From positions 682,001 to 746,000 of the forward strand of contig KV419407.1 in NCBI GenBank assembly GCA_001630475.1: a stretch of 64,000 nt of DNA, read 5' to 3'. Origin of the DNA: Sistotremastrum niveocremeum HHB9708. Lineage: Eukaryota > Basidiomycota > Agaricomycetes > Sistotremastrales > Sistotremastraceae. Position numbers and translations under genes: made by a program. Of this stretch, positions 3,953 to 20,778 are shown in pieces (positions within the stretch are counted from its first letter, which is position 1; the number at the start of each line of letters is the position of its first letter). Below the pieces are notes generated by a model. It was given only the letters and a program-made list of their open reading frames with translations. It did not search any database and was not told the DNA's origin.

Positions 3953-5120
3953 ATGACCAACGAACTCCCCCACCCCGACCCATCCCTTTCCCCTGACTCC
4001 AGCGTCTGGAGCCCGTCAGACTCGTTCTCACCGCCGCCCTTCTCGAACTCGGACGACGCATCTTCGGTCACATCTGAAGACTGGGAACGTGCTATGCAGT
4101 CCCCCTCTCCTGCTCCCTCTGTATATTCCCTCACCTCCTCGCTCAGAGAGCAGTCGTTTCGGAGAGAATATGGTCGAGAGCTCAACAATTACTCAGAGGT
4201 CTATCGACTGCCTGCAGATGACGAGGAGCTCGACCGACTCAGTGAGCTATATCTTTTCATTCCATCGTCTTGTGCTCAATACAGGTCCAGAAAAGCAGCA
4301 TCAGTTGCTATGCTCCGTCATGGGCGAGTTCCACCCACTTGTTCATCAGGTCATGCAGGACGAGCCTGGCATCAAAAAGGCTGCCCTGGATCTGGGCTGT
4401 GGATGCGGCAGCTGGATCATGGACCTCGCCCGAAAGTATCCCAACGCATACACCGTCGCCGTCGACCTCGTCCCTATGCAGTGCATCGACATGCCCCCAA
4501 ACTGTCGCTCAGAGGTCGATGATATCAACCTCGGCTTAGAGCACTTTTATGGCGAATTCGATCTCGTCCATGCGCGGCTCATCGCATCAGGCATCAAGGA
4601 CTACGCGGGCCTCATCGAGCACATCTCCCGCGTCCTCCGGCCTTGCGGCCTTCTCCTTGTCGCAGAATGGGACTTCCGGGCCTACGACGAACAGAGAAAA
4701 CCCATCATCTGCGAACTCCATGACGAGTCCAAGCCATGGATCGCCCGTTGGTGTTCTGCCGTCGCCCAGGCCGCTCGTGCAAGGGGCGGTCATCTCGACG
4801 CCGCCAACCTCTTGAAACTCTGGTGCTCTGATAATCGAGCATTTCGTACAGAGTCCGTCGTCCACAAAGATCATTGGGTTCCTCTAAGCCCCTGGCACAC
4901 CAATCCAGGGCCCGAAGGGGACAAGTATCGCGAATGGGGACTCGCCATGCGAGAAGACACCATCGCGTTTTTGAAGGCAGGCAGGCCTCTATTACTAGGT
5001 CACGGATTTTCCGAAGACCTTGTCGACGAATTAGAAGAAAACTCTCGGGAATCTCTTTTCGACCCCTCCGTTCACCTGTATACGCGCGTACAGCAAGTTA
5101 CAGCGCAAAAGAAGTGGTAG
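3953..5120 (+). CDS. Class I SAM-dependent methyltransferase
   Basis: Two exons (3953-4241 and 4285-5120) joined by a 43-nt intron. The N-terminal ~95 residues are Ser/Pro-rich and probably disordered (MTNELPHPDPSLSPDSS onward). The catalytic part begins near SPEKQHQLLCSVMGEFHPL and contains SAM-binding motif I as ALDLGCGCGSWIMDLARKYP. An acidic motif II region follows (VAVDLVP), then FDLVHARLIASGIKDY and the post-motif strand VLRPCGLLLVAEWDF. The fold and cofactor are clear; the substrate is not. Related proteins are numerous in mushroom genomes and are usually annotated only as methyltransferase-domain proteins. The 3' end faces TAF2 convergently with about 120 bp between stop codons. Confidence 0.85.
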
Positions 5121-5241: not shown

Positions 5242-8200
5242 TTAAATCTTCATTTTCTTGTTCGATCCGGATACCTTCTCCTCATCTTTCCGTTTCTTGC
5301 CCTGAGTCACCTTGACTTCCTCCAGCATTTCCTTCACCTTCTTCTGAAGTTGGGTCGCGGTTTGCCCCACAAGTGACTCGGCACCGTTGAACGTGACAGC
5401 GTTTCGCACCATCAATTGGACATCACTCTCGAAAGCTTGAATCGAGTCGTACTTGTCGTTGTCCAACTTGGTCCGAATCGTGCGCAGATCACGCGCATCC
5501 TTCTTCGGGATGACTTTGTGATAGTCTGGAATGTTCAGAGCAATAGGATCTACCGGGTCCTTGAAGAAAAACACACTGAACAATAGAGGTGAATATTCTG
5601 TTCACCTCGGAATTCTTGGACACTCACAGGGTATCCATTTTCATGAGGCGAGTCAGAAGTCCTTGCAATGCTCGCTTTTCGTGTCCCCCAAGACGTTTCT
5701 CCAAAGCTTTGTTCCATTCCTTTTTCCAAACCCTCTCGACAGCGCTCGCCCATTCCGTAGGCGGCGTTGTTGGCGGATTAAACAATCGACAATTCGAAAA
5801 TATTAACTCCACGTCATGTGCGAATGCTTCCATCGTCGAGTAGCGACCGCTGTCCAAATTATTGCTCAGGGTCTCAAAATCCATCGGATGCTTTATTTCG
5901 TCGTAATACCTGTCAATATATTGTGAGTGAAGAAGTGTTAAAGACAAACTGTGCAACTCACGTTGGACAACCATCTCGCTCTGGATCGACGGGTCGATTG
6001 AAGATGATAGCCTCTGGAAGTTTTCGAAGGATGCGTAGTATCTCGCGGCACTTCTTCTCATTTATGGGAATGGGCGCTGCGGGTGTGGGCTTCGCACTCG
6101 ATGTCGTGGGCTGAGAAGCCTGGGGTATCGGAGTACGCTCTGGGTTCTTGATTTTGATGCTGGGTGCGCTCGAAGACCCACTTCCTGGTAGACTGATGGT
6201 GGGCTTCTTCACCTTCATCGATGGCAGAACCTCAGACTTGGAAGGTGGAAGCAGTATATTTGCTGCCAGTGGAGGAGGGCCGCCTTTGTCCTTCTCCTTC
6301 TCTTTGAACTTGAGCTTCTCCTTCTTCTTTTCTGAACGAGGTCGATCTTGTTCCATTTCGATAACCTCTTGCAATAATATGTCGTCCACAGTCTCCTTAG
6401 CTGTTGAACTGCTGGCTTTCGGCGGAAGTGCAGACGGCAGAGGGCTTGCACTCGGTACCCTGGGTGGCGCATTCTTTTGAGCGCCCAACTTCAACTTAAT
6501 CTTGGGAGCATGTTCTGCAGGTTCTGGACGGATGGGAGTGGGTGCGACGGGCTCTCGGACGATGTCAAGCGTCGATACGATAGCAGATTCGACTTCGTCC
6601 ATAACCGCCGGCGGACGAGTAAGATTCCCTGCGTGTTCTAGAGTGTTACGGATGCGAGCCCACGCTATATGCAATTATTCAGCCAAATTAAATTCTTGGA
6701 AACAAAAATCTAGGTTACCTTTGTTGAAGAATGAATCAAGCGCAAGGGCTTCATTGTATGCGAATGCTCCGGCGGGATTATAAGTCTTAGCATTTTCTAT
6801 CATCAGCCGGAAATCGGCCTCGAACTGAGCGAGGCTATTGTACAGGCCAGCTTCGAGTTTCGCGTTCATGGTGCTCAGATCCATCGGATTTTTGATGACA
6901 TCAAAATAACTGTGGAGTCATTATAAGGTTGTGAATGATTGAAAATATGAAACATACTTGGGTGCCCTGTCACGAATAGGGTCCACTGGTTGGCGGAAGA
7001 GTATGGAGTGACTATATGCCATAAGTTTCTTAAGAGCCGTTCTGCAGGCTCGCAAGTCACGATTTGAAAGCCCTCCTGACTGTCCTTTTGGTAAGATCTT
7101 ATCTTTCTTCTTTTTATCAGGGTTTTGAGAGGGTCGGTCCAATCCGGCGTGTCGCTTTGGCAATTCGGTTTTGATTTGTGCTTGAGGAGGTGCCTGGGCT
7201 TTTGGAGCATTGATTGAAGATCCAAGCTTGATTTTCGGGAATGCCGGTGAGGCTTTGGCAGCAGATGTGGCGAGAGGTGTGGCGGGAGGTTTGATAGGAA
7301 GCTTTGGGGCAACTCTGACTTTGGGAATAGGCGCAGGAAGTATAGGCGGAGCTTCTGAGACAGGGGTTGGAGGAAGATGAATGGTAACCTTAGGGAGTGC
7401 TTCCTCAGCGGGGCGAATGGTCATTTCGGCGAGCTTTAGGAGGCACCATCGTACTTGATAGTCAAGGTTGGGAGAACTGCTAAGTTGTGAGAGATTGGTC
7501 CCAGCCGAGAAAAACTTATGCTTACAGCAAAAGAGGCACGAGACACTCGCGGATGACATCATTCTTTCCAATTTCTCTGTCCCTTCTCAGGCTCCTGAAC
7601 ATCAACTCAGGATCCGTTTTCCTTGCCTCCTTGCTTTTTTCGCCCCCGTTTCCATCTTCCTCAATCAGAAGGCTCTCACCATCCTTGCTGAGTGCACTTT
7701 TGATCTCTCCGATGGAGTACTGGATTGCTAAACTCTCGCACATTCCTCGCGCAATGTGACGGCGAATGATGCGAGACGAGTCGTAACTCATGACAGTGAA
7801 CAAATACTTCATGATCTTCGGTGTGAACCAGTTCGATAGAAGCAACCCATCGAAAGCGACAATCCGGACCTGAGTATAGTTGCCTTCTCTATTATCTGGT
7901 CAATGAGTGAGATAGCAGGTTTCGAAAGAAACAAACCGGGAACAGGCTAAAAAGGGTTTACTGTCATTGGGGATGAGGTTAGCCATGCTGACGATGAGAT
8001 TGAACTGCACAAAACGAATCAACGCCGAACACTAAGGAAGTGCACGAAACTAACCTCCAAGGCCGCTATAGTGACAATATTGTGGGTTGACGGGACCAAA
8101 CGGTCCATGCTCCGATAACGATCTACTTCGGCAACGGCTGCCGCAAGCAACTCACGATCTTCTGCGCTCTGTTCTGTGCGCGTTTCGTCAGAAACAAGTT

Positions 8201-11200
8201 CCCCCCGTTCCGGCGGGACATTGGGTACAACAGCTGTAGCGAGTGCCGAGATTAAGGAGCTAATGTATAAAGCATCTCCAAACTAAACAAAGGTTAAGAT
8301 GAATACGGTAACCCCAAAATGATAGCCTTACAGGATTATTTGTATTATCATTGTAACGTAGCTGATCGATGAGGAATTGTCGTACAATGGGGGGTGATTT
8401 CCCTTTCTCGATCCGAACTTGTGAAATGGCACTGACAATGGCCTAAACAAATCATCAGTGGGTCCCGAAGATTGAACCAGAGGATGGCTCACCCTTCGGA
8501 CGAAGTATTCGGCTAAATCAGAAAAGTCATTTGGTCGTGGTACGTATTTGAGCGTGAACAACTCTTTGGTTGGATCATCCGGGTTGTAACAATAGCGTAG
8601 GAACATCTTGAAGAGATGAAACAGTCCGATGAAGTCAAGCCTTCGAGTAGCACACTTCGTTCGCGAATGAAGATCGGACGCAGAGAAAGCAAAGGCAGAG
8701 ACGTACATTGACGAGTGCCAGGGCAGCTTCCACCCGTATTCGAAAAAAGTAGTTTGTGACCAGAACGGTTTTGGTCAGCGTACTTGAGACAATATGGGAT
8801 GACTGGCGGCTCAATGCCCTGACCGCCTGAGCACAATCAGCACTGTGAGATGCACCAAGTTACGCAGATGTTACCTCGAGCTGAGCAACGACATCTCGAT
8901 CTCGCTGCAGTTGTGAGACCCACATGTAATCAGGTTGCTCGAAATTGATGCTGCCAATCCATTCAAAGTCTGCGTCCATGCGGATCCACTCGTAGACAGC
9001 CCCAGACATGTTCTGTTCGTCTTCTTCGGTCCAATCTGCAACCTTCCAATTCTCTCTTTCTTTGATGTCCTCCCATACTTCGAGACCAAATCCCATGTCA
9101 ATCATGCCGATAGCTTCAGCTGCCTCCGTGTCACCCTGAGCAGCCGCAGCGGCTGCAGCTTGGCGAGCAAGAAAGCGCTTGGTGTTTCGACGCACTCGTT
9201 TGTATTTCGTATTGAAAGGCACTTCATATCGTTTCGAAGGGGTCCGAACATCAAGAACATGCTCATATGGTGTGCCGTCGGCTTCATGTATCCGAATCGT
9301 CATTTGGCCTTCGAAGAACGGGATAGGCTTCAGAAGAGCCAATGCAACGGGATCGTGTTCGTTATGAGTATAGGCGGGTGCATCTTGGCGCATTGTCAGT
9401 TCGACGGCCATCCGTTTCCGATTGAATGTCGCAGAGAACGAAAATCGTGGGCAACCACTCCCGTAGATCCACTGATCAGCAAACGAACGCAGATCAACTC
9501 CGCTAATCTTCCGACACGTTCTCAGGAAGAAGTGGGTTGAAAGAAAATTATTCGGCATCTCGCCACTCAGAGCAGCCAGGAATATTTTGGGAAGCACACG
9601 AGAGAGTCCAAGTGATGTACCTGATTTTCCAAGTCGTCTGTCAAGAATGTGCAGAACGAGAGGGGCTTTGAGATGAATGAAACTGAGATTCGCGGTATCT
9701 GGAGGTTCCAGTACACCTGGCTGACAAATTGGAGGTTTCGTGCCAACGTCCCGAGCGATCACACGTTCCATGTCTTGCTTCAACCGAAAACGATATTCGT
9801 TATTGCCCAATAGTTTTCGCAAGAAAAGGCCGCAGATGTATAGGCCGATACCCGCCACAAGCCAAGTGTCTGAGTAAGCCTTCGGTTGAATATAGATACC
9901 AGCCCACTGACATGCAAGCCCATGAGCCAGCACCTGGCGAGTTTCAAAGACCTGGTCAATGGCGTCATCGCCGTGTAAAAGGTCTGCCGACACGATAGTC
10001 ATGGTGGCGCAATCAAAGCGCGCCGTGGACATTTCATCGACGAAAATCACTTTGTACGAGCTGAAGGGATATTGGCCGAAGTCAGTATAGAAAGTCATCG
10101 CGCTTCGAAGGAATGTAGTGGAGGCAATTAGCATGTGCTCGGAGCCAGGAAGGCAGAACACATGCATTTGCGGCTGACTAGAGGAGCCTTCGGCGTGATG
10201 GCTAGAGTCGAGTGGAAGATTTAGGATATGAAACGGTCCTGCGGCAAAACCAACATGTTGGGCTGAAGTGAAGGCGGAGAGCGTGAATAGAAAAATAGTT
10301 TTCGTTGAGTTATAGGGATGAGAAACCTTGGGACGTAATTTTATTAACATATAGTAATCAACGTCTGAATTTTCGATTTGGCGCACCTGCTCGATCAATT
10401 CCCCGCTGCAAACCACCACAGTAGGCCAGTCTCCGAGCTCCGAATCTTCACCTGGTTCATCATCTCGATATGAACGGGCGGCATCCTGATCGTGTTCTTC
10501 TAGATACCTCGGAACTACGAACTCAAAGTCCCAGGTGCACTTCTCCCAGGGGTTATCGATGCATGGTACCCAACATCGAGCAGCATCGGGGGATGACGGG
10601 TTGGTAAAGACATGTGGCACGCGCTACAGGGCAGTTCAGAACACTAAGCGACGCGCTTTAAGAAAGTATAACGAACGTAAGGATCCGCTTCTGTGGGCAG
10701 AACGAACTGTAATCCATCAGCGGGACGGCGCAGAGAATACTCAATGTGAACGACGATGGGAGAGAACTCAGTGGCAGGGAGAGGATGAGTCGAGGGGCCG
10801 GGGGTGCTTGGTTCGGGCGTTCCGACTGATAGAAAGATCAGATTGTCAAACGAACTCGAATTTCTGAAAGGGCACACCTTCGCTGTGAATCACCCCAATG
10901 GCGGACACATCCGCCTGAATGCATTGATCAGGTAAGTCCACAGTGTGCTAACATTCCACACACCTGTTTGAGCGATACTTGGGGAGGGACGGCAATAGCC
11001 AACTCTCCGTCGTCACATTCGGCAAGAGCTGAGAAGAGCTTGCGCTTATATTCAGGATAACTGTGGAAATCCGAAGGGTTTACAAGGTTGAGGGAGGCGA
11101 TGGGGTCGTGGTGAAGAAACTCGGCTTTATATGATGCAACGGTAATGGTTTCGATTTCTGTAGGCAAGACAATTCAATACAGGCCGAGAGCGAAAGCTGG

Positions 11201-11471
11201 AGAAGTCGTCTGACCACATTGACGGCAATGTAGAAGGATAGTCCTAAGGGCGGCCGAGGTAGGCACGAGAGTGATGTCTGTATATCCCTTGAATAACGTT
11301 AATCTCTCTGATGCCTGCAGTGCGCAAGACCAACATACTCGGGCGGCGCCTGAGAAGTCAAGCTCTAAGACGACCTTTTGATTCACAGTGTGGCATGGTC
11401 AGTCAGTAGAATGGATGAGAGTATGATATCACTTATATAGAAAAGCCACGGCGACTGCTTTCTCGTTGCAT
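5242..11471 (-). CDS. TAF2: TFIID subunit TAF2 with three C-terminal bromodomains
   Basis: TAF2 is the M1-aminopeptidase-like subunit of TFIID that contacts core promoter DNA around the initiator. The ATG at 11469-11471 opens MQRESSRRGFSI and is preceded directly by an in-frame TGA. The aminopeptidase-like N-half (LELDFSGAAR, ILLHCRQC, WVPCIDNPWEKCTWDFEFVV, FVDEMSTARFDCATM) lacks the HExxH zinc motif, as expected for TAF2. HEAT-like helical exons lie between about 8830 and 7500. Three bromodomains follow after low-complexity K/P-rich linkers, around 7030-6690, 6050-5740 and 5575-5330. Their acetyl-lysine Asn contexts are AKTYNP, CRLFNP and VTFNG; the third domain has a degenerate ZA loop. The C-terminus is a basic KKRKDEEKVSGSNKKMKI. 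The first intron appears to be of AT-AC type (11388-11436). Confidence 0.9.
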
Positions 11472-20706: not shown

Positions 20707-20778
20707 TAGCATCAGGTAGTTTCGATCCACCGACCTCAGGGTTATGAGCCCTGCGCGCTTCCACTGCGCCATGATGCT
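20707..20778 (-). tRNA. tRNA-Met (CAT anticodon)
   Basis: Read on the minus strand, a full cloverleaf fits. The acceptor is AGCATCA pairing with TGATGCT. The D-arm region is GCGC..GCGC and the anticodon loop CTCATAA lies in a GGG/CCC-type stem. The T arm is GGTGG-ATCGAAA-CTACC. There is no intron, the discriminator base is A, and CCA is not encoded. The anticodon is CAT. The T loop ATCGAAA and stem features fit elongator methionine better than initiator, but I did not score this. It stands alone between COQ1 and calnexin. Confidence 0.92.

Follow-up and report, generated by a model that had tools for sequence, protein, structure and literature searches.

A probable AT-AC intron of the ordinary spliceosome at the start of TAF2 in Sistotremastrum niveocremeum HHB9708

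The question raised by this locus is how the reading frame opened by an ATG at position 11471 (minus strand) can reach the conserved N-terminus of TAF2 when a TAA lies in frame between the two. The analysis started from a window of 64,000 nucleotides (the whole stretch of DNA studied, C14:682001-746000) in a genome of 34.7 Mb, which was judged basidiomycete-like from its genes and its short introns. A 49-nt stretch on the minus strand, 11436-11388, is very probably a real TAF2 intron with AT-AC ends, which would be removed by the ordinary U2 spliceosome. Such an intron at the start of TAF2 had been put forward in an earlier note on this DNA, and the proposal is now supported by an in-register protein match, the donor, the intron length and a second gene family.

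The minus-strand gene at 11471-5242 was identified as TAF2 by the similarity of its predicted product to known domains and solved structures. The hand model, drawn by conserved reading, replaced a first heuristic model that had put several introns wrongly; it has 18 exons and encodes 1782 amino acids, and its 17 introns comprise 16 with GT-AG ends and one with AT-AC ends. Using phmmer, the N-terminal 667 residues were found to resemble Taf2 of PDB 6hqa_A (E 4.3e-89), which we take to be the yeast protein of Komagataella phaffii, and TAF2 of 30ff_DB (E 3.1e-53), presumably from human. The Pfam search returned the TAF2 Ig-like domain and the TAF2 TPR repeats (entries PF25316 and PF25577), a Peptidase_M1 match and three bromodomain stretches. 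In a genome search with TAF2, all four matching pieces fell at this one locus (5242 to 11471) and no second locus matched.

The three bromodomain stretches (PF00439) lie in the C-terminal part of the modelled protein (window positions 5242-6958 and upstream exons, minus strand), and a modelled GT-AG intron at 7525-7477 separates the exon in which the TPR part ends (aa 1039) from the exon of the first bromodomain, which starts at about aa 1251. A divergent gene was predicted by a rough parser on the plus strand from about 12043, approximately 0.6 kb from the TAF2 start; its open reading frame contains an SH3-like stretch, judged by reading. A tRNA gene was located by Rfam at 20707-20778 of the window (minus strand).

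Exon 1 of TAF2 (11471-11437, minus strand, 35 nt) encodes MQRESSRRGFS followed by two bases of an Ile codon, and an in-frame TGA is found two codons upstream of its ATG (TGA ACC ATG). The predicted intron 1 (11436-11388, minus strand, 49 nt, phase 2) reads ATAAGTGATATCATACTCTCATCCATTCTACTGACTGACCATGCCACAC, that is, it begins with ATAAGT, continues through CTGACTGAC and ends with CCACAC; the sequence behind it is TGTGAATCAAAAGGTC. Its removal joins MQRESSRRGFSI to VNQKVVLELDFSG in frame, the codons at the join being GGC TTT TCT AT + T GTG AAT CAA AAG and the predicted junction ...GGCTTTTCTAT joined to TGTGAATCAAAAG. Exon 2 (11387-11339, minus strand) reads (I)VNQKVVLELDFSGAAR and matches Taf2 of 6hqa_A. 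If the intron were retained, translation would halt at once, because ATAAGT in phase 2 itself reads as an in-frame TAA.

The 5' splice site ATAAGT (11436-11431, minus strand) carries AAGT at +3 to +6, which is the U2-type donor consensus and outscores 95.4% of 456 introns as well as all 16 other TAF2 donors. The 456 introns were taken from a rough gene parser, which is crude and fuses genes, and served for the donor and branch statistics only. For the branch site, a YTNAY-type motif 10-25 nt from the 3' end was sought, and two overlapping CTGAC sites were found on the minus strand at 11406-11398 (11406-11402 and 11402-11398), starting at −19 and −15 relative to the 3' end of the intron. The motif scan of the 49 nt revealed CTCAT as the only further site. 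The branch site is of average strength (54.8th percentile of the 456 introns). The 3' splice site, CAC with the AC end, was read at 11390-11388 (minus strand).

The other 16 introns of the hand model are GT-AG throughout and 48-66 nt in length, a range shared by intron 1, and branch-like sites of the same type were detected in 14 of the 16 (motif scan). They differ from intron 1 in the first and the last base, and their donors are weaker at +3 to +6. These results agree with what the earlier note had read from the letters, namely the ATG opening MQRESSRRGFS after an in-frame stop, the 49 nt from ATAAGT to CCACAC with their frame-keeping removal, a U2-type donor beyond its first base, CTGAC close to the intron end and a length matching that of the neighbouring introns.

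The protein evidence lies across the junction. In the alignment of 6hqa_A NFKIAHQKVQLDVDLA with the product of AT-AC splicing GFSIVNQKVVLELDFS, the junction is crossed without a gap, and the N-terminal stretch reported by phmmer spans it, since this stretch starts at query residue 6 (6hqa_A) or residue 8 (30ff_DB). Taken alone, the stretch matches weakly (12.7 bits, i-Evalue 0.31 for 6hqa_A; 19.4 bits, i-Evalue 0.0029 for 30ff_DB); in the short exon 1, the match to the family is carried by a few residues (F, I).

For a comparison of possible splice pairs, single introns were enumerated, allowing any ATG from 12100 to the anchor, intron lengths of 35-249 nt and acceptors no more than 45 nt beyond the anchor. 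This resulted in 16 products, of which 11 derive from GT-AG or GC-AG pairs, 3 from AT-AC and 2 from AT-AG. Two statements of the earlier note have to be corrected here. It had described the TAA as preceding any usable GT donor, but GTCGCC (11455) and GTGGCT (11449) lie in exon 1 ahead of it; it had also stated that no GT-AG or GC-AG combination keeps the frame, whereas 11 do. The conclusion is unchanged, as VNQK is kept by none of the 11 and each loses at least VNQKVVL. VNQK is incompatible with any canonical acceptor, because the next AG after that of ATAAGT itself is CAAAAG at 11375.

A canonical intron with a weak exon 1 donor, as in the 85-nt pair of GTGGCT (11449) with TCTTAG (11365), giving a shorter N-terminus that lacks VNQKVVL, is improbable. 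In its favour are the 11 frame-keeping pairs and a rough parser, which used no homology and, with AT-AC permitted, picked the 85-nt GT-AG pair at TAF2. A coding-potential test with a home-made gene parser showed zero gain at TAF2, whose exons of only 35 and 49 nt give such a test too little to work on. Against the 6hqa_A stretch, the Smith-Waterman score was 82 for the AT-AC product and 71 for exon 2 alone, but 59, 57 and 58 for the GT-AG products of 85, 91 and 100 nt, which drop the pattern F.I..QKV.L..D that stands in register with yeast Taf2. Against 30ff_DB, six of the seven sequences, the AT-AC product included, scored 87, and the 100-nt GT-AG product scored slightly higher (92). The N-terminus of 30ff_DB does not discriminate among the candidate products and does not favour the AT-AC product. 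The canonical donors, such as GTGGCT and GTCGCC, were judged poor, and all 11 lengths (ten of 82-109 nt and one of 37 nt) fall outside the 48-66 nt of the other TAF2 introns. A second AT-AC register of 49 nt (ATATAA...TGCCAC, 11438-11390, product GFSTVNQ) keeps the frame as well; it is without the donor consensus, and its score against 6hqa_A was lower (77).

Alternatively, a sequence or assembly error might be assumed, the true intron being either GTAAGT...CAG or GTGATA...AAAAG (11432-11375) with the TAA as a base error. One change each at donor and acceptor would produce a canonical intron, and the GTGATA...AAAAG pair is in phase but for the TAA. The former version, however, needs two independent errors that jointly hit the one known partner pair, and the latter loses VNQK (Smith-Waterman score of 60 against 6hqa_A, with the stop as X). 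The same signature recurs at four other loci, which errors would hardly produce, and an error of this kind is considered very improbable.

The letters at the donor, TATATAAG, look like a TATA box, and transcription might start below it, with TAF2 beginning further downstream and without exon 1. The position near the 5' end, with the divergent gene predicted from 12043, would suit a promoter. Exon 2, however, contains no in-frame ATG, and the ATG at 11396 inside the 49 nt is out of frame with VNQK. Moreover, the agreement between exon 1 and the splice consensus would have to be put down to chance. When the 260 nt upstream were subjected to 20,000 dinucleotide shuffles, an ATG-opened in-frame intron of the type ATAAGT + CTRAC + YAC ending within 12 nt of the real place never occurred (0 of 20,000); under a loose criterion (six AT donors, branch site not required) 109 of 20,000 shuffles qualified. 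A TATA box in place of the splice site thus appears scarcely credible.

Since AT-AC ends are the classic mark of minor introns, the type of spliceosome was analyzed. U12-type AT-AC introns share these ends with TAF2 intron 1 but are characterized by the donor RTATCCTT and the branch site CCTTAAC. The donor found here is ATAAGTGA, and CTGAC occupies the branch position; CCTTAAC is absent from the 49 nt. Using Rfam, U6 was found at five places in the genome, three of which were rescanned, and the ACAGAGA box was normal in the one shown. No match to U6atac, U12 or U11 was obtained in the whole genome, although the 14 control genomes likewise gave none. The available excerpts of two surveys describe minor introns as absent from the Basidiomycota or find none convincing (PMC10639083; PMC2846911). 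A U12-type intron has a probability close to nil, and given the donor and branch site of non-minor type, the lack of detected minor snRNAs and these surveys, intron 1 is probably removed by the U2 spliceosome.

Splicing of TAF2 intron 1 by the U2 machinery would proceed as follows. ATAAGT would be recognized by U1 and U6 via positions +2 to +6, and U2 would pair with CTGAC. The first A and the last C would stand in for the two G residues usually found there, which come into contact during the second step of splicing. The contact between the first and the last intron base is known from yeast and mammalian work, on which the proposed A-C contact is modelled. The predicted product is GFSIVNQKVVLELDF; without splicing, or with the GT located four bases downstream as the donor, the reading would run into the in-frame TAA.

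The whole genome was then searched with the pattern ATAAGTN{18,45}CTGACN{4,18}YAC and its CTAAC version. The forward patterns gave 83 (CTGAC) and 31 (CTAAC) matches and the same patterns read backwards 283 and 261, so that the counts alone are uninformative. The flanks of every listed place except C95:6231 were scanned. Open, coding-like flanks were found for 49 of 121 ATAAGT..CTRAC..YAC pairs compared to 652 of 1639 other end pairs, i.e. without genome-wide enrichment. At the lowest threshold, coding-like flanks showed no excess (59 of 121 observed, 59.4 expected); above 3 there were 2 (3.25 expected) and above 5 none (1.48 expected). A coding-potential score above 5 was reached by 1 of 121 AT-AC pairs (L025) and by 1 of 842 null pairs, at the same L025 donor. 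It is homology at five loci, and not genome statistics, that carries the case for the predicted introns. AT-AC introns in phases other than 2 may have been missed or read as GT-AG, because only the phase-2 TAA bars the GT four bases on.

Further candidates from these searches were inspected and not accepted as AT-AC introns. L079 (C49:200412) holds an ordinary GTAAGT...GCTCAG intron, and L073 (C39:124090), which we take to be clathrin-light-chain-like, was read with a GT-AG intron whose donor is the GT four bases further on. For L047 (C14:394661-394717, plus strand), presumably a kinase-like gene, a phase-0 candidate intron with the ends ATAAGT...CAC would join GVLDGKEITY to RWPIFGG..FYAELALY; a GT-AG alternative was seen on reading the sequence, and no other genomic place covering this junction was found in the whole genome. 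L105, L026, L097, L110, L082 and L103 were likewise not accepted. Two zf-C4pol loci (L114 and L115), considered in view of an AT-AC intron in zf-C4pol of Ganoderma lingzhi, were given a cursory AT-donor scan in three frames, the zf-C4pol reading of L115 being on the strand opposite to the match. Searches for relatives revealed none in viral_contigs and six pattern matches in genome_contigs, none of which was confirmed.

The four loci accepted beside TAF2 belong to one family. Candidate introns of the form ATAAGT...YAC were found in L025 (C3:321432-321481, plus strand; 4501-4550 of the locus) and L076 (C40:44108-44156, plus strand), which encode related proteins with the join GFN|NQL(Q/E)EL. 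The same place holds an ATAAGT...TTAC intron in L075 (C40:41950-41903, minus strand) and an ATAAGT...TATAC intron in L116 (C40:39075-39025, minus strand); the latter has a CTTAC branch-like site and is absent from the pattern lists. L076, L075 and L116 are three paralogues within 6 kb. All four copies found thus carry the predicted intron at one position (48-51 nt, phase 2, giving GFN|NQ), the copies being those recovered by a genome search with 60 residues of one member at E up to 0.1, by which distant copies may be missed. In each of the four, the unspliced donor reads as an in-frame TAA. Among the six pairs of copies, exon identity was 57-79% and identity of the intron interior 26-57%; for L025 and L076 the two values are nearly equal (59% and 57%).

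In-frame GT-AG or GC-AG pairs exist in these copies as well (5, 10, 4 and 2, in total 21), and GFNNQ is kept by none of them. One alternative of 69-72 nt is common to the three copies on C40, its donor G(C/T)TTCA lying 10 bases upstream and its acceptor GAAG 11 bases downstream; the copy on C3 is without it. This pair was rejected because the donor is poor and conserved residues, GFNNQL(E), would be lost. The best Pfam match of the protein is O-FucT with 26.3 bits, below the cut-off of 31.5, and no related solved structure was found; the name O-fucosyltransferase-like is therefore tentative.

AT-AC introns outside the minor class are known, the AT-AC II introns of sodium-channel genes being examples. 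In C. elegans, which seemingly lacks minor snRNAs, at least 42 AT-AC introns were judged real in the sections available (PMC3033335). According to partial texts, AT-AC introns account for 0.019% of annotated fungal introns (PMC7072748), in line with the rarity mentioned in the earlier note, and for 0.0235% in Coriolopsis trogii, where the intron types examined by PCR included AT-AC (PMC13395996). For G. lingzhi, Table 1 of the respective report gives 13 AT-AC introns among about 92,000, one of which was confirmed by Sanger sequencing (PMC11590231). As far as these excerpts go, the U2-type AT-AC introns of G. lingzhi and C. trogii resemble TAF2 intron 1 in their AT...AC ends, their short fungal length and their great rarity, and the TAF2 intron would join an already known class. 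The present case differs in concerning another gene and, in addition, a family in which each of the four copies found carries such an intron. Searches among open-licence papers revealed no report of an AT-AC intron common to a mushroom gene family.

A more far-reaching reading, which we regard as rather unlikely, is that these U2-type AT-AC introns are under selection and that their ends act as a maintained switch or quality check, and are not a mutation reverting to GT-AG. Selection is suggested by the four copies found, in which ATAAGT and the terminal AC were kept while most of the intron interior changed. A switch or quality check is suggested by the phase 2 of both accepted families, in which retention of the intron or use of the neighbouring GT would end the frame. 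For genome annotation, gene finders restricted to GT-AG and GC-AG introns will cut TAF2 and the fucosyltransferase-like genes of this fungus short or begin them at a wrong place. The paralogues with their common AT-AC intron, in a genome where no minor spliceosome was found, may offer a natural series for studying why such introns persist.
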